Shown: piece after piece, positions 2,880-30,245 of the stretch
Layout: each line of letters begins with the position of its first letter
How positions within the stretch are numbered: the first letter of the stretch is position 1
Assembly: GCA_030452225.1 (NCBI GenBank)
Contig: JAKDMP010000003.1
Coordinates: 1-40,266, forward strand
Source of the DNA: Gammaproteobacteria bacterium
GTDB lineage: Bacteria > Pseudomonadota > Gammaproteobacteria > JAKDMP01
DNA length: 40,266 nt
Direction: 5' to 3'
Notes under the pieces: model-generated
What the model saw: the letters and a program-made list of their open reading frames with translations, nothing else
Database searches by the model: none
Told to the model about the DNA's origin: nothing
Program-made: the position numbers and the translations under genes

Positions 2880-4661
2880 ATGAAATGCAAATTCGGAGTC
2901 ATCGGTGCGCTGGGAATTTCGCTCCTGATTGCCGGTTGCGGTGGAGGTAGTCTGAACGGAGGCGATGAGCCGCCGCCCCCGATCGAGTCGGCAGTCCAGC
3001 TTGGCAGCGTCGTCGGCGGCGCGTTCCAGGCAGGGGTACTGGAAATAACTACTCCACAATTGTCGGCGGGCGGCTCGACGACCGTCTCGGCAGCGTTGCA
3101 ATACACCGATGGTACGCCGTACACGGGCTCCGCCACCATCACGTTTACTTCTTCCTGCTACCAGAACGGACTGGCAACTTTTACGGTCGACGGCGAGGCA
3201 ACCAACGCTGTGACCACGGCCACCGGACAGGCAAATATTACTTATTCGGCCAAAGGTTGCAGCGGGTCGGATACGATCACCGCGACGACCAGCATTGACG
3301 CCGACACCCTGACCGCCACCGGCGTTGTCACGGTGGCGCCGGCCAGCGTGGGATTCATCCAGTTCGTTTCCGCCACCCCCGATATCATCTCCTTGAATGG
3401 CACCGGGGGGCCGCAGACCTCGACGGTGATTTTCCAGGTCACAAACTCTTCCGGCGGACCCGTACCCGGAGCCAGAGTGGAGTTTTCACTCGACACAACG
3501 GTCGGCGGCATTACCCTGGCGCCCTCGAGCGCCACCACGGGCAACAACGGCCAGGCGCAAACGATTGTAAGGGCGGGAACGCAGCACACCACCGTGCGCG
3601 TGACGGCCACCGTCCACACCGACGACGGCAGAACCATCTCCACCCAGTCGCCGGGGATCGTCATCAGCACCGGTATTCCGACGCAGAAGCATTTCTCGCT
3701 TTCCCTCTCGAAGCATAATCTGGAAGGCTTCAATACCGACGGCCTGACCTCGAGCGTGCAGGTCATTCTTTCCGATCGGTTCGGCAATCCGGTTCCGGAT
3801 GGCACCCAGATCGCATTTACCACCAATGGCGGGCAGATCGGTCCATCGTGTACTACCCTTGGCGGTAGTTGCTCGGTACCTTGGACGAGCGCCAATCCAC
3901 GCCCCTCAAACGGCCCTCTGTCCGTCATCGGGCATGCGACGATTCTTGCCTATGCCACCGGCGAGGAGAGTTTTACCGACGTCAACGGCGACGGCATCTT
4001 CAACGTCGCGAACGGAGTAGCGGATACGTTCAGTCTGGTCCCGAATCCGGGGGCGCCGAACAATCCCGGCGACAATTTCTACGGCATGCCGACGGCGGAC
4101 GAAATTGGAGAGGTGTACCTGGACCAGAATCAGAACGGGGCATACGATCTGGGGGAATTCTTCTTCGACTTCAACCATGACAGCGTGCGCAACAACCCCG
4201 GCTGGGAGCTGGCCGCCAAGGGCGCTCGTCAATATCACGGTTACGGTTGCGAGGGGCCGGTCCCGGTCCCGGATCCGAACAACCCGGGTGCAACGATCCC
4301 GGTCCAATGCGGAACCTCGACGGTGGGCGTGGGGCTGGAGGATTGCATCGTAATGACGACTTCGGCCGTCGTTATCAGCGGGCCGGGCAACCTCAATCCC
4401 GGCCAGAGCGTCACGTATTCCGTGTCGGATTTGAACGGCAACGTACCGCCGGCGGGCATGCAGTTTACCATCCTTGCCAATGGCGCCGACGCGAGCGTCC
4501 TGCAGGAGGAGGTGCCCGATATCGGGGGTTGCCCCATACCGCCCGCCGCCTACACGATCAATGTCACCGTTTCCGCTACGTCCCAGCCGGGAAGCTTTCG
4601 AATCCAGGCCGTATCCCCCCAAGGGCTCGTGAGTTACAGCAACGCGATCACCGTGAACTGA
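2880..4661 (+). CDS. Multi-domain Ig-like (invasin/Big-type) lipoprotein with EF-hand-like loops
   Basis: I do not recognise this as a named pilus gene. ATG 2880 is chosen over ATG 2868 because GGAG at 2870-2873 sits 6 nt upstream; the protein is 593 residues. It starts with a lipoprotein signal (SLLIAGC, Cys20), then a Gly/Pro-rich tether. Several Ig-like beta domains follow, with bacterial Ig phrases such as LSAGGSTTVSA, DGTPYTGSATITF, PVPGARVEFSL, NNGQAQTIVRAG, DRFGNPVPDGTQIAF and NPGQSVTYSV. Between the third and last Ig domains, residues 367-438 carry three Asp/Asn loops of EF-hand or dockerin type: DVNGDGIFN (367), DQNQNGAYDLGE (415) and DFNHDSVRN (430). Several cysteines suggest disulfides outside the cytoplasm. 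It is 36 nt after pilQ and runs in the same direction, so it is probably co-transcribed. A calcium-dependent adhesin or pilus accessory role is an inference from position and motifs. Confidence 0.8.
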   Translation: MKCKFGVIGALGISLLIAGCGGGSLNGGDEPPPPIESAVQLGSVVGGAFQAGVLEITTPQLSAGGSTTVSAALQYTDGTPYTGSATITFTSSCYQNGLATFTVDGEATNAVTTATGQANITYSAKGCSGSDTITATTSIDADTLTATGVVTVAPASVGFIQFVSATPDIISLNGTGGPQTSTVIFQVTNSSGGPVPGARVEFSLDTTVGGITLAPSSATTGNNGQAQTIVRAGTQHTTVRVTATVHTDDGRTISTQSPGIVISTGIPTQKHFSLSLSKHNLEGFNTDGLTSSVQVILSDRFGNPVPDGTQIAFTTNGGQIGPSCTTLGGSCSVPWTSANPRPSNGPLSVIGHATILAYATGEESFTDVNGDGIFNVANGVADTFSLVPNPGAPNNPGDNFYGMPTADEIGEVYLDQNQNGAYDLGEFFFDFNHDSVRNNPGWELAAKGARQYHGYGCEGPVPVPDPNNPGATIPVQCGTSTVGVGLEDCIVMTTSAVVISGPGNLNPGQSVTYSVSDLNGNVPPAGMQFTILANGADASVLQEEVPDIGGCPIPPAAYTINVTVSATSQPGSFRIQAVSPQGLVSYSNAITVN

Positions 4662-5241: not shown

Positions 5242-6332
5242 GCGGTTTCGAGTTGGCAGTCGAGGGAATCGATTACCCGGTATGGGTCGGCGCACGTGAA
5301 GAGATCGATGACAGGTTGAATCGGCTGATTGCGGGCCGGGACCTTCTGGTGGTGACCGACGGCAACGTCGCCTCCGTTCATCTGGAATCGTTTCGGGCCT
5401 CGTTTGCGTCCGCTGCACGCCTGGAGACGCTCGTGCTGCCTCCCGGAGAAAGTGAAAAGACCCTGGCCGGGTTCGAGCGGATCATCGCCGCGCTGGTCGC
5501 CGGCAGATTTCACCGCGACGCCGTGGTGGTGGCGCTGGGCGGCGGCGTGGTGGGAGACACGGCAGGTTTTGCCGCCGCCTGTTATCAGCGCGGGGTGGAC
5601 TGGATTGCCGTGCCGACGACCTTGCTTGCGCAGGTGGACGCTGCGCTTGGCGGCAAGACCGCCGTCAACCATCCGGCAGGCAAAAACCTCGTGGGCGCCT
5701 TCCACGATCCGGTGGCGGTATGGATCGACCCCGCGACACTGGCCAGCTTGCCGCCACGCGAACTCCGCGCCGGCTTCGGTGAAGTGGTCAAATACGGACT
5801 GGGTTTCGATGCCGGTTTTTTTGCGTGGCTGGAAGATCATGCCGAAGCGCTGGGCATGGGCGAGCAGGCCGGGTTCGCCGCGGTGGTTGAGCATTGCGCG
5901 CGCATCAAGCTCAAAATCGTGGCGGCGGATCGCACCGAACACAGCGAACAGGGCGGGCGTGTATTGCTCAATCTCGGTCATACCCTGGGACATGCGCTGG
6001 AAACCGCACTGGGCCACGGCTATTGGTTGCACGGCGAGGCGGTGGCCGTCGGGCTTGTGGTTGCTGCGGAACTTTCCCGCGCCCGCCGCAGGATTGACCC
6101 CGATTTGCCGACACGGCTTCGCCGCTTGTTGCACGCGCTGCATTTGCCCGCGGCAATTCCTGATGCGCTCGAAACGGAGTCGCTCATGCAGGGCCTTGCG
6201 CTCGACAAGAAGATCGCAGGGGGCAGGCTGCGCTTTGTCGGGCTGGAAGCACCGGGGCGTGCAGTGGCCTGGAACGATGTGGCCGCGGATGAGCTCGAGC
6301 AGGCCATCGATGCCGCCCGTACCCGCCCATGA
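5238..6332 (+). CDS. aroB: 3-dehydroquinate synthase
   Basis: AroB converts DAHP to 3-dehydroquinate with NAD+ and a divalent metal, the second step of the shikimate pathway. Its 364 residues match the usual length. Recognisable family segments are LPPGESEKT, the NAD-binding ALGGGVVGDTAGFAA, VPTTLLAQVDAALGGKTAVNH, and the metal ligand regions GFGEVVKYG (Glu), NLGHTLGHALE (His) and GYWLHGEAVAVG (His). The ATG lies inside the aroK stop (ATGA), so the two are translationally coupled. The damX and dam genes that often follow aroB in enterics are absent; pyrF follows after a 182-nt gap. Confidence 0.97.
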   Translation: MSGFELAVEGIDYPVWVGAREEIDDRLNRLIAGRDLLVVTDGNVASVHLESFRASFASAARLETLVLPPGESEKTLAGFERIIAALVAGRFHRDAVVVALGGGVVGDTAGFAAACYQRGVDWIAVPTTLLAQVDAALGGKTAVNHPAGKNLVGAFHDPVAVWIDPATLASLPPRELRAGFGEVVKYGLGFDAGFFAWLEDHAEALGMGEQAGFAAVVEHCARIKLKIVAADRTEHSEQGGRVLLNLGHTLGHALETALGHGYWLHGEAVAVGLVVAAELSRARRRIDPDLPTRLRRLLHALHLPAAIPDALETESLMQGLALDKKIAGGRLRFVGLEAPGRAVAWNDVAADELEQAIDAARTRP

Positions 6333-6369
6333 AGGCGTGCAGCGGGCGCCTGACTGGATTGATCCCATA

Positions 6370-6431
6370 GGGCACACAGAACGCAGAGCTTGCCGAGTGC
6401 GAGTATTCGCCTCCGTGCGTTCTGCGTACCC
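6370..6431. repeat. Imperfect inverted repeat in the aroB-pyrF gap
   Basis: The arms 6370-6385 and 6416-6431 pair at 14 of 16 positions around a 30-nt loop, with a 9-bp perfect core (CAGAACGCA against TGCGTTCTG). No T-run follows, so a classical Rho-independent terminator is unlikely. It may be an mRNA 3'-end stabiliser or a dispersed palindromic repeat copy. It lies 37 nt after the aroB stop. Confidence 0.5.
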
Positions 6432-26263: not shown

Positions 26264-26863
26264 ATGACTGGATTGATTCAGAACATCATTGAGCAGAGCG
26301 GTTATTTCGGCATTTTTGCCCTGATGATTCTCGAAAATGTCTTTCCGCCCATTCCGTCGGAAATCATTGTGCCGTTCGCCGGCTACGTCGCCGCGCGTGG
26401 GGATCTGAGCGCAATCGGCGTCGTCATCTCGGCCACGCTCGGCTCGGTTTGCGGCACATTCATCTGGTATTTGCTGGCGCGCTGGTTCGGCGAAGAGCGC
26501 CTGCGCCGACTGGTCGCCAGGCATGGGCGCTGGATCACGATGAATCAACGCGACATCACCCGCGCCAGCAAGTGGTTCGAGCGCTTCGGCGCCTGGGCGG
26601 TTTTCCTCGGCCGGCTTGTTCCGACCGTTCGTACGCTGATCTCCATCCCGGCCGGCCTCGTTTGCATGTCGCCGCTCAAGTTTTTCCTGTGCACACTTGC
26701 CGGCTCGCTACTGTGGGTGTGCGTGCTGACTTGGCTGGGATTGCAACTGGATGAGCACTATGACCGTGTCGAGGCATGGCTGTCACCGGTGACCACTGCG
26801 GTGATCGCGGTGATTGTCATCACCTATATCTGGAGGGTCATCCGCTACAAGCCCGACGAGTGA
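26264..26863 (+). CDS. DedA family membrane protein
   Basis: A 199-residue polytopic protein of the DedA/SNARE-associated family. It shows the re-entrant family motif LENVFPPIPSEIIVPFAGY (residues 23-41) and the signature RFGAWAVFLGRLVPTVRTLISIPAG with the conserved Arg and Pro residues, followed by helices KFFLCTLAGSLLWVCVLTWLG and TAVIAVIVITYIWRV. Family members are implicated in flipping undecaprenyl phosphate or phospholipids and in pH/drug tolerance. It starts 12 nt after rluC and is likely co-transcribed. Confidence 0.92.
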   Translation: MTGLIQNIIEQSGYFGIFALMILENVFPPIPSEIIVPFAGYVAARGDLSAIGVVISATLGSVCGTFIWYLLARWFGEERLRRLVARHGRWITMNQRDITRASKWFERFGAWAVFLGRLVPTVRTLISIPAGLVCMSPLKFFLCTLAGSLLWVCVLTWLGLQLDEHYDRVEAWLSPVTTAVIAVIVITYIWRVIRYKPDE

Positions 26864-27035: not shown

Positions 27036-27110
27036 GTTCGTGCTGAGTGTAGCGCAGCGAAGTCGAAGCAGGCCTTCGACTCCGGTCTGCGACCTACGCT
27101 CAGGCCGAAC
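27036..27110. repeat. Palindromic repeat with GTTCG…CGAAC arms (dedA/DUF2269 convergent gap)
   Basis: The arms GTTCGTGCTGAGTGTAG… and …CTACGCTCAGGCCGAAC are imperfect reverse complements; the centre is GTCGAAG-caggc-CTTCGAC (27062-27080). It belongs by pattern to the dispersed proteobacterial repeats reading TTCGTGCTGAGC…GTCGAAG. The rest of the 305-nt gap 26864-27168 shows no gene. Standing between convergent genes, it could end both transcripts. Confidence 0.6.
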
Positions 27111-27168
27111 TGAGGACAGGAGCGCTCACACACGGCCAGCGTCAAGTTCATACCAATTAATTACCGGC

Positions 27169-27627
27169 TCAATAGGCGGGTTTTGCCACCATAAGGTAAA
27201 CATTGATGAGGGGAAGGATGACGGCGATGGTTCCGAAGACCATCCACAGGATGTTGAGCCGCCAGTACCGTGGGGGAATTTCGCCGCCGCTACGGAAGAT
27301 GCGTGCCATTCGGGCCTGGAGTATCTCCACGGAAATCAGTATCGCCAGCCATATGACGCCGGAGCCGACGAACAGCATGATGCCCAGGTCGAGCCAATCT
27401 GTATGATCATAATCACCGGCCATTGCGGTGCCGGTGATGGCAAGCAGGGCGGCGCCGGTTGCGGTGAAGGCGATATCCGTAACCATGACCAGGCGCTGGC
27501 CGAACGCGACGATTACCGGGTTGCGGGTGCGGTCGGCCAACCCCTTCCATAGGGCCGTGACAATGATATTGCCGAGGAAAACAACGGCGCCCAGCACGTG
27601 CAGGGCCTTGAGCAATTCGTATGACAT
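27169..27627 (-). CDS. DUF2269-like integral membrane protein
   Basis: A 152-residue protein with four hydrophobic helices: LLKALHVLGAVVFLGNIIVTA, VMVTDIAFTATGAALLAI, WLDLGIMLFVGSGVIWLAIL and LNILWMVFGTIAVILPLINV (quoted in part). The opening KALHVLGAVVFLGNI…WK pattern, ADRT and the RYWRLNILW stretch resemble DUF2269 proteins, whose function is unknown. The conserved His9 near the first helix is a possible heme or metal ligand (inference). It is the second gene of an operon 31 nt after the DUF962-like gene. Confidence 0.75.
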   Translation of the reverse strand: MSYELLKALHVLGAVVFLGNIIVTALWKGLADRTRNPVIVAFGQRLVMVTDIAFTATGAALLAITGTAMAGDYDHTDWLDLGIMLFVGSGVIWLAILISVEILQARMARIFRSGGEIPPRYWRLNILWMVFGTIAVILPLINVYLMVAKPAY

Positions 27628-27658
27628 CCAGTTTTTTCTCCGATTGCTCGAGGCGGTA

Positions 27659-28009
27659 TCAGCGTGCGTTCCGCAAGGCGCGGAACCAGCCGCCGGTCAC
27701 CACGAAGCGTGGAAACGTAAGCCACTGCTCAAAGAACAGCCGCGTGAGTGCATTGCCCGGCCCGGTAAAGGGGTCCGTAGGATTGGGTTCGGACTTGTGA
27801 CCACGCCCCTGGAGGGCCAGGGACAGGAGCATGGTGAATGCCCCGGCCGCCGCAATGATCCAGGCTTGCCCAAGCAGAGCGACGACGAGGGCGATGTTGC
27901 CCGCCAGAAACAGGGGCACCAGCAGGACATGAAGGATCAGATTGGCCTTCGACTGGTGATACTCCGAGTAACCGTTCAACTGTGTTTGCAGCACTTCTCT
28001 CAAATTCAT
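27659..28009 (-). CDS. DUF962/Mpo1-like small membrane protein
   Basis: ATG 28009 is chosen because GGAGG lies 7-8 nt upstream; the frame is open further but without a start signal. The 116-residue product has NGYSEYHQSKANLILHVLLVPLFLAG, a second helix (WIIAAAGAFTMLLSLALQ), then GHKSEPNPTDPFTGPGNALT and FFEQWLTFPRFVVTGGWF (quoted in parts). The pattern HxxxxNxxLH, then GHxxE…P…F…EQ…TFPRFV is that of bacterial DUF962/YGL010w proteins, related to the yeast Mpo1 2-hydroxy fatty acid dioxygenase, which uses His residues to bind iron. Whether this short version is an enzyme is unknown. It is first in the TetR-controlled operon. Confidence 0.75.
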   Translation of the reverse strand: MNLREVLQTQLNGYSEYHQSKANLILHVLLVPLFLAGNIALVVALLGQAWIIAAAGAFTMLLSLALQGRGHKSEPNPTDPFTGPGNALTRLFFEQWLTFPRFVVTGGWFRALRNAR

Positions 28010-28053
28010 GACTTCTCCTCCATGTGTATTCGGGACGATTCCTTGACACCGAC

Positions 28054-28070
28054 CCCTTGCAGAGCAAGGG
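28054..28070. promoter_or_regulatory. Hairpin in the leader of the DUF962-DUF2269 operon
   Basis: CCCTTGC-aga-GCAAGGG is a perfect 7-bp stem with a 3-nt loop, about 20 nt into the predicted minus-strand leader and 44 nt before the start codon. It could set mRNA stability. Confidence 0.45.
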
Positions 28071-28085
28071 CGTCCAGAGCCAATG

Positions 28086-28102
28086 TTTACGCTGTTAAGT
28101 TT
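28086..28102. promoter_or_regulatory. TetR operator-like site 1
   Basis: TTTACGCTGTTAAGTTT matches site 2 at 14 of 17 positions in direct orientation, 27 bp apart. It overlaps the -10 of the minus-strand promoter. Half-sites TTTAC and GTTAA are imperfectly palindromic. Confidence 0.5.
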
Positions 28103-28125
28103 AGCATTAATCTTTACATTGTCAA
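28098..28125 (-). promoter_or_regulatory. Sigma-70 promoter for the DUF962-DUF2269 operon
   Basis: On the minus strand a perfect TTGACA (28125-28120), a 16-nt spacer and TAAACT (28103-28098) form a promoter. Both elements lie within the operator-like repeats, so a bound TetR protein would block it. This short stretch is clearly more A/T-rich than its surroundings. Confidence 0.6.
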
Positions 28126-28129
28126 GTTT
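28112..28129. promoter_or_regulatory. TetR operator-like site 2
   Basis: CTTTAC-att-GTCAAG (28112-28126) is a palindrome with 5 of 6 matching pairs, and the longer TTTACATTGTCAAGTTT (28113-28129) repeats site 1. It overlaps the -35 of the minus-strand promoter and a possible plus-strand promoter (TTTACA, 16 nt, CACAAT) for the regulator, suggesting autorepression. Confidence 0.55.
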
Positions 28130-28144
28130 TATGGCACAATGCCC

Positions 28145-28759
28145 ATGATGAGCAAAACCCACAGACCGGCACGCCCGTACCATCACGGCAACCTGCGCGA
28201 GGCGCTCGTGGAGGGCGCGGAGGCGCTGCTGAATGAAAGCGGCACGGAGAAATTCAGCCTGCGCGCGGTGGCGCGGCGAATCGGGGTTTCACCGGCGGCG
28301 CCCTATGCGCATTTTGAAAATCGCCAGGCGTTGCTTGCAGCGGTAGCCACGCGCGGTTTCAAGCGGCTGAGTGCATACCAGAAGCAGGCGGAAAATCGCT
28401 CGCAGGGCAGTGCCGAGTGGATGCACAGTCTGGCCCGGGGGTATGTCCGTTTTGCGGTGGATCATCCGATCCTGTTCCGCCTCATGTTCAGCGCCGAACT
28501 GGATGGTGTCGACGATGAAGCGCTGTGGGCGGCGGCGGATCAAAGCTATGCCTTCATCCGGACTGCCGTCGCCGACCGATTGTCACAAGCGGCTGATCGC
28601 CGCATGAATGCGGGCGCGGGCAGCCGGGGGGCATGGGCGCTGGCGCATGGCCTGGCCATGCTGATCGTGGATGGCAAGGTGGACTGGCCGCCCACCGAAT
28701 CGGTCCGGGACGCGATGATCAATGAAATAGCGGGCGTCTATTCGTCGGGTCTGCTGTAG
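28145..28759 (+). CDS. TetR family transcriptional regulator
   Basis: A 204-residue regulator. The N-terminal helix-turn-helix domain reads HGNLREALVEGAEALLNESG, then FSLRAVARRIGVSPAAPYAH and FENRQALLAAVA, the standard TetR recognition region. The C-terminal part (LARGYVRFAVDHPILFRLMF and onward) is of the TetR_C_33/WHG type. ATG 28145 is chosen; ATGs at 28139 and 28148 are in frame, and no Shine-Dalgarno is seen, so the mRNA may be nearly leaderless. It is divergent from the DUF962-DUF2269 operon, and the two operator-like sites in the gap make it the likely repressor of that operon. The ligand is unknown. Confidence 0.88.
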   Translation: MMSKTHRPARPYHHGNLREALVEGAEALLNESGTEKFSLRAVARRIGVSPAAPYAHFENRQALLAAVATRGFKRLSAYQKQAENRSQGSAEWMHSLARGYVRFAVDHPILFRLMFSAELDGVDDEALWAAADQSYAFIRTAVADRLSQAADRRMNAGAGSRGAWALAHGLAMLIVDGKVDWPPTESVRDAMINEIAGVYSSGLL

Positions 28760-29096: not shown

Positions 29097-29675
29097 TCAG
29101 GGCAGGGCGTAACCGTGTTCGCGCAGGAGGCGCGCCGTGGCAATGAGCGGCAGGCCGGCGAGGGCGGTCGGGTCTTCGGTTTCGATGCGTTCGCACAGGG
29201 CGCTGCCGAGACTTTCGAGCTTGAGTCCGCCGGCGCAGTCGATCGGGTTTTCCTTTGCTACATAGCGACGAATTTCGTCCCGGTCCAGGGGGCGCAAATG
29301 GACGCGACTCTCGTCGAGATGAGTGACGGGCGTGTCGTTGCCCGATATGAGCAGGGCGATGGCGGTGTAGTAGGTGAGGATGCGCCCCGAGAATTGCTCG
29401 AGATACTGTTCTGCCGTACCGGTGTCTGCGGGTTTGCCGACTGGCTGACCGTTGAATGAGGCAAGCTGGTCGCCGGCCAGGATCAAGGCGTCCGCGCGCT
29501 GCCCGGCGGCGGCGCGGGCCTTGGCACAGGCGAGGCGCAGGCCGGCGTCTCCCGGCGTTTCGTTTGCCCGGAGACTCTCGTCCACCTCGGGGGCGAAGGT
29601 TTCGAACTCCACGCCCAGCCGGCCGAGGAGTTCGCGCCGGTATGGCGAGGTGGAGGCGAGTATCAGTGTGGGCAC
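29097..29675 (-). CDS. yceF: Maf/YceF family nucleotide pyrophosphatase
   Basis: A 192-residue Maf-like house-cleaning pyrophosphatase; the YceF subgroup hydrolyses m7GTP in E. coli. GTG 29675 is used as start because it gives the family N-terminus VPTLILASTSPYRRELL; GTG 29690 is an alternative and the frame opens further upstream. Motifs: SxSPRRxxLL-type substrate loop (STSPYRRELL), EVDES, ETP, KARA, the catalytic Asp in LILAGDQLASFNG, KP and DCAGGLKLESLG. Placement divergent from yceD-rpmF-plsX matches E. coli, which supports YceF over YhdE. Confidence 0.92.
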   Translation of the reverse strand: MPTLILASTSPYRRELLGRLGVEFETFAPEVDESLRANETPGDAGLRLACAKARAAAGQRADALILAGDQLASFNGQPVGKPADTGTAEQYLEQFSGRILTYYTAIALLISGNDTPVTHLDESRVHLRPLDRDEIRRYVAKENPIDCAGGLKLESLGSALCERIETEDPTALAGLPLIATARLLREHGYALP

Positions 29676-29682
29676 GGCCTCT

Positions 29683-29712
29683 TTGACCACCGGTGGGCTT
29701 CCACAATACGAT
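29683..29712 (+). promoter_or_regulatory. Candidate promoter of yceD-rpmF-plsX-fabH
   Basis: TTGACC (29683-29688), an 18-nt spacer and TACGAT (29707-29712) fit sigma-70 with five and four matches. Transcription would begin about 29719, almost at the yceD ATG, giving a very short leader. Confidence 0.45.
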
Positions 29713-29720
29713 AACGAGTT

Positions 29721-30245
29721 ATGGATATGACGCCATGGAGCCGGCTCGACCTGGAAGCACTCGCCGATACCGGAGGGCATCTCGAAGGGCGGTTCGATGC
29801 GGCCGCGCTCGACCCGCGCCTGGCGGGCGCGCTCGACCGCGACGAAGTGACCGGGGAGGTGCGTTATGCGCTGGATTTTCAGCGGCTCGCCAACGGCGAA
29901 GTTGGGGTGCGCGGAGCGATTCGGGCGCGCCTGGGGGCGTGCTGTCAGCGCTGCCTGGAGCCGTTCGAGCTGCAGGTGTCGGCCGGCCCGCGTCTGCAGG
30001 TGTCGTCCACGGATGAGCGCGCGGAACCCGAGGAAGGCTGGGAGCCGGGCGACCCCGATCCGTCGCCGACGCTGGGGGCCCTGATCGAGGATGAACTGTT
30101 GCTTGCGTTGCCGCTCTCACCGCGCCACCCGGAAGCGGATTGCCCGGTGAGCGCCGCGGCCGGCGCCGTCCCCAAGACCGATACGCAACGGCCCTTTACC
30201 GGTCTGGCGCGTGCGCTGGCGGAGCGGGACGGACGCAAAGACTGA
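29721..30245 (+). CDS. yceD: YceD/DUF177 family protein
   Basis: A 174-residue acidic protein of the DUF177 family that precedes rpmF in most bacteria. It shows the family's beta-rich core and the cysteine motif [14 protein letters not shown] (C-x2-C), an acidic middle ([15 protein letters not shown]) and the [16 protein letters not shown] phrase ahead of a third Cys (DCPV). The family has been linked to 23S rRNA/ribosome assembly; plant relatives act on plastid 23S rRNA. ATG 29721 is used, 29727 also possible. Confidence 0.92.

Follow-up and report, generated by a model that had tools for sequence, protein, structure and literature searches.

Mpo1 is a fatty-acid-oxidizing enzyme of yeast, and the activity expected of an Mpo1-like protein is the Fe2+-dependent oxidation of 2-hydroxy fatty acids. 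Bacterial members of the family are widespread, with 400 DUF962-like relatives confirmed in genome contigs (a contig search with a single DUF962-like sequence gave no matches, and the relatives were found with an alignment as query). In the literature searched on DUF962, DUF2269, and Mpo1-like proteins with TetR, no functional study in bacteria was found, nor any report on the activity or regulation of bacterial Mpo1-like proteins. On the regulatory side, the closest systems are local repressors of the TetR_C_33 group (PF13305), which share with the locus described here their domain architecture, divergent layout, and paired TTNACN3GTNAA (putative) operators. They differ from it in their targets, which are DoxX-like, DUF2306, ABA4-like, lipocalin, FadH-type reductase, carotenoid dioxygenase, and other genes, versus an operon of DUF962-like and DUF2269 genes in the present case. 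This kind of regulator module is known, and it is the enzyme family under its control that is poorly characterized; the locus appears to be a genuine, well-delimited, and fairly ordinary local TetR switch on a little-studied membrane enzyme family.

The locus lies in a 40,266-nucleotide stretch of gammaproteobacterial DNA (the window) and comprises the following features.

27169-27627, minus strand: DUF2269 gene, encoding a four-helix membrane protein of 152 amino acids (Pfam, 89.2 bits)
27659-28009, minus strand: DUF962-like gene (remote Mpo1 superfamily), encoding a membrane protein of 116 amino acids; ATG at 28009 with GGAGGAG ahead
28086-28102: putative operator 1, TTTACGCTGTTAAGTTT, with core TTTACGCTGTTAA at 28086-28098, covering the operon promoter in its -10/start region
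28113-28129: putative operator 2, TTTACATTGTCAAGTTT, with core TTTACATTGTCAA at 28113-28125, covering the -35 box of each promoter
28098-28125, minus strand: predicted operon promoter TTGACA-16-TAAACT, a consensus match only (10/12); -35 TTGACA at 28125-28120, -10 TAAACT at 28103-28098
28113-28140, plus strand: predicted tetR promoter TTTACA-16-CACAAT, a consensus match only (9/12); -35 TTTACA at 28113-28118, -10 CACAAT at 28135-28140
28148-28759, plus strand: tetR, encoding a TetR_N + TetR_C_33 regulator of 203 amino acids; ATG at 28148, possibly 28145

The two membrane protein genes lie 31 bp apart on the same strand as a two-gene operon, from which tetR diverges across a 138-bp intergenic region. 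The original prediction of a TetR-controlled divergent pair of small membrane proteins is correct as to the divergence of tetR, and control is strongly backed by comparative evidence on the operators, but the membrane protein genes are codirectional and tetR alone is divergent. The three-gene block is flanked by a dedA-type gene (ending at 26863) and a maf-like gene (29097-29780, minus strand). Downstream of the operon, positions 27036-27128 hold a dispersed repeat; the genome has four further partial copies of it, of which the closest is 85% identical over 80 bases. The fatty acid genes plsX and fabH, as read from translations, lie a few kilobases beyond the locus, and nothing links them to the tetR switch.

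Both Pfam domains of the window TetR score above their cutoffs (TetR_N, 41.8 bits; TetR_C_33, 54.8 bits), and the protein is a TetR family regulator of the TetR_C_33 subfamily; a phmmer search of the PDB matched 3on2 (E = 4e-23). The 17-bp repeats ahead of its gene were found as originally described, identical at 14 of 17 positions with starts 27 bp apart, and when the flanking bases are included the repeat extends to a 21-mer (81%). Each holds an imperfect palindrome of the TetR type, TTNAC-N3-GTNAA, with five of six pairs palindromic in the operator 2 core. The pattern TTTACNNTGTNAAGTTT occurs at these two sites only in the whole genome of 2,315,070 bases, as does TTNACNNNGTNAA within the 40-kb window. 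Across 32 loci of TetR homologues, drawn from genomes of the class and from the neighborhoods of DUF962-like genes, 22 TTNACNNNGTNAA sites fall in the 4,480 bp upstream of tetR (taken as some 140 bp per locus around its start, on the upstream side) versus 0 in the remaining 109,651 bp. This specificity lends the operator claim good support, and the comparison argues strongly for the repeats as operators for this group of regulators; it also suggests that the window TetR itself binds them. Paired sites are 26 to 27 bp apart in the window and in four other loci (L063, L097, L209, and L247) and 29 to 32 bp apart in other loci, and the strict motif is absent from more distant TetR relatives on actinobacterial and rhizobial plasmids. 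It is exceedingly improbable that the repeats are a chance occurrence or leftover duplication rather than operators: the intergenic DNA is AT-rich and the promoter matches within it are near chance, but when the 138-bp region was dinucleotide shuffled 20,000 times, two TTNACNNNGTNAA sites never arose, and the same motif is found specifically upstream of homologues, on which grounds chance was rejected.

The promoter calls by themselves are not clearly above chance (2 found versus 1.0 ± 0.9 in shuffles). Repeat 2 spans both predicted -35 boxes, including the TTGACA of the operon, and repeat 1 spans most of the operon -10, in agreement with the original prediction; the likely tetR promoter had also been described as covered, which holds for its -35 but not for its -10, which falls outside both repeats. 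The tetR -10 ends about 5 bases ahead of the first possible ATG (window positions 28135-28150), and a tetR mRNA with almost no leader would follow from these coordinates.

A conserved neighborhood of all three genes in relatives, on which the original prediction had staked itself, was not found: no DUF962-DUF2269-TetR trio was present among DUF962-like, DUF2269, and TetR loci from up to 369 genomes of the class, or in 80 DUF962-like loci, and in the sets searched this counts against DUF2269 as a conserved member of the neighborhood. The divergent pair of TetR and an Mpo1-like gene, with paired sites between, recurs at least four more times. A homologous TetR is divergent from a DUF962-like gene in a gammaproteobacterial MAG (L097), in Rhodoferax (L108, with a DUF4345 gene first), and in an Alcaligenaceae bacterium (L146), and it is divergent from an Mpo1-like gene on a Klebsiella pneumoniae plasmid (L209, NZ_CP056276.1:120073-128396). 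All four regulators have the TetR_N + TetR_C_33 architecture. The sites are looser matches in L108, where they form an inverted pair with a spacer one base longer (4 bases), and in L146, where one runs into the start of tetR; L209 has two cores, both perfectly palindromic and spaced 27 bp apart.

Of 72,556 plasmids searched, one alone gave a DUF962-like match, and the same record matched the window TetR better than any other. The pair on K. pneumoniae plasmid pRHBSTW-00867_2 (NZ_CP056276.1:123342-124411) consists of a TetR 43.8% identical and a divergent Mpo1-like gene product 42.6% identical to those of the window and, like the window, has two putative operators 27 bp apart; after it come a GNAT gene and insertion sequences in place of DUF2269. 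The plasmid is conjugative and from wastewater, and the pair sits among IS66, IS5, and IS1 elements; the module can therefore be mobile. Searches of phage and defense libraries gave no DUF962-like match, unnamed families only for TetR and DUF2269, and no defense system.

In 77 of the 80 DUF962-like loci no such TetR adjoins the DUF962-like gene, and the pairing is thus a minority arrangement. Together with the nonconserved trio, this would fit an operon that is constitutive and only accidentally adjacent to a TetR regulating its own gene and other loci. Such a reading is very unlikely, as the putative operators overlap the operon promoter, a looser 14-bp form of the motif has just four isolated matches elsewhere in the genome, and four unlinked records repeat the pairing of a TetR with a DUF962-like gene, operators included. 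The hypothesis that the DUF962-linked TetRs, four or five in number, share one origin was rejected (approximately unbiased [AU] test P = 0.012 without the plasmid member and 0.024 with it), on long branches. They do not make up a single clade, and hence the arrangement is conserved but is not clearly that of one ortholog; with the long branches as a caveat, this suggests repeated pairing of TetR with DUF962-like genes.

The identity of the DUF962-like protein as Mpo1-like, also part of the original prediction, stands at the level of profiles but not of the single sequence, which scores 18.8 bits against the Pfam Mpo1-like family (PF06127), under the curated cutoff of 24. In a profile-profile comparison by hhalign, a 45-member alignment of DUF962-like relatives matched an alignment of 14 Mpo1-like proteins with a probability of 95.9% (E = 6e-9), versus 0.4% in a control against DUF2269. 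Y14, H18, H27, H71, and E74 are invariant in the 45 DUF962-like sequences, the same set is invariant in the 14 Mpo1-like sequences, and hhalign aligns the two sets with each other; the DUF962-like sequences carry the Mpo1-like signature Y-x3-H-x8-H and H-x2/3-E. In light of the profile comparison and the shared invariant residues, and despite the Pfam score, the protein appears to be a real but remote member of the Mpo1 superfamily with putative activity. Relatives in the same TetR arrangement score 25.9 and 26.0 bits, over the Pfam Mpo1 cutoff (the Klebsiella plasmid and Alcaligenaceae bacterium proteins), and 23.3 and 15.7 bits in two other cases. Some proteins matched by the Mpo1 profile are matched weakly by the DUF962-like profile as well (e.g., in genome G108), and two bona fide, over-threshold Mpo1-like genes sit elsewhere in the window's own genome. 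The AlphaFold2 model is all-helical (pLDDT, 94.9), and a structure search against the PDB returned nothing significant. With Mpo1 (2019 work, as cited in PMC13332142), the window protein shares the core Y-x3-H-x8-H ... G-H-x2-E of Mpo1-like proteins, alongside the remote profile similarity. Its difference from Mpo1-like proteins is that it belongs to a separate subfamily with TFPR and EQW motifs, of putative activity.

Members of this TetR group also stand divergent from genes for FadH-type reductases (assigned from the sequence itself rather than by Pfam), DUF2306 and ABA4-like proteins, and a carotenoid (cleavage) dioxygenase, and a fungal DUF2306 member is needed for an epoxidation (PMC12895699). 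The idea of a lipid signal gains mild circumstantial weight because these other regulators of the group face enzymes acting on hydrophobic substrates. Relatives of TetR_C_33 type also face SDR or FAD oxidoreductases, DoxX-like, lipocalin, DUF4345, and DUF2852 genes, and a TolC-like gene, and the hydrophobic-substrate theme is thus not exclusive. An operon that is controlled by TetR but whose DUF962-like protein is not an oxygenase, serving instead in a membrane stress or exporter-like response to a toxic compound rather than a lipid, is possible, if rather unlikely. It would accommodate the DoxX-like, DUF4345, DUF2852, and TolC-like targets, the commonness of small membrane proteins among targets in the gammaproteobacterial sample, and the subthreshold pairwise match to Mpo1, but it sits poorly with the 45 DUF962-like sequences, all of which carry, without exception, the complete Y/H/H/H/E signature that marks bona fide Mpo1-like proteins.

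The identity of the DUF2269 protein (PF10027) is secure, as originally predicted, with a full-length match above the cutoff (positions 2 to 150 of 150). Its AlphaFold2 model (pLDDT, 93.9) has four long helices, H10 is conserved in ≥90% of 25 homologues, and a structure search against the PDB found no solved fold at an E value of ≤0.001. DUF2269 is reported to be remotely similar (E = 0.15) to DUF989, the membrane part of the urate oxidase PuuD (PMC4562309), from which the window protein differs in having no cytochrome domain; because of this remote similarity, a redox role is possible, though only suggested. In no other sampled locus does DUF2269 lie beside a TetR_C_33 or DUF962-like gene. In one locus (L080, approximately 3578-4400), a close DUF2269 homologue (50%) adjoins a different, poorly matching TetR (29.6% over 54 residues); this pair was not counted, the shared operator not being seen there.

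The locus is probably an autoregulated, ligand-released TetR switch that would induce a membrane Mpo1-like oxidase together with DUF2269. In this switch, a TetR_C_33 repressor dimer would bind the two pseudopalindromic operators, identified by comparison, in the 138-bp region and, by masking both -35 boxes as well as the operon -10, would silence tetR itself together with the DUF962-like/DUF2269 operon. A small molecule, plausibly hydrophobic or lipid-like, may release TetR. The induced DUF962-like protein, given its family relation and His/Glu set, could then work in the membrane as an Mpo1 superfamily oxygenase that depends on Fe and oxidizes a lipid. DUF2269 might, speculatively, serve as a membrane partner, possibly heme or electron linked, in this genome's version of the module only. 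At the level of sequence, the regulator class, putative operators, promoter overlap, and recurring pair are well supported; a lipid ligand for TetR is conjectural. A wider and decidedly tentative proposal, which we consider doubtful, is that TetR_C_33 regulators with paired TTNACN3GTNAA operators have repeatedly become attached to small membrane oxygenases and redox enzymes with hydrophobic substrates (Mpo1-like, DUF2306, ABA4-like, carotenoid dioxygenase, and FadH type), with the window module providing inducible bacterial alpha-oxidation of 2-hydroxy fatty acids or similar lipids and DUF2269 as the redox partner. A dedicated repressor with well-defined operators offers a direct handle on the enzyme family, as the releasing ligand should point to the substrate, and this TetR group ties several small membrane families together through one operator type.

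DUF962-like relatives also occur in other settings. One that is 56% identical (L013:3870-4220, minus strand) is an apparent integron gene cassette, near an integron integrase gene, intI (5451-6419; TIGR02249, 489.6 bits), with attC-like folds carrying R-box motifs on both sides of the cassette. An attC scan of the window genes for an integron origin was negative, but it likewise failed to pick up the attC-like sites in L013, so its outcome carries no weight. In a Comamonas MAG (L096:3992-4783), a DUF962-like gene is followed by a gene for a DUF1304 membrane protein (145 bits).
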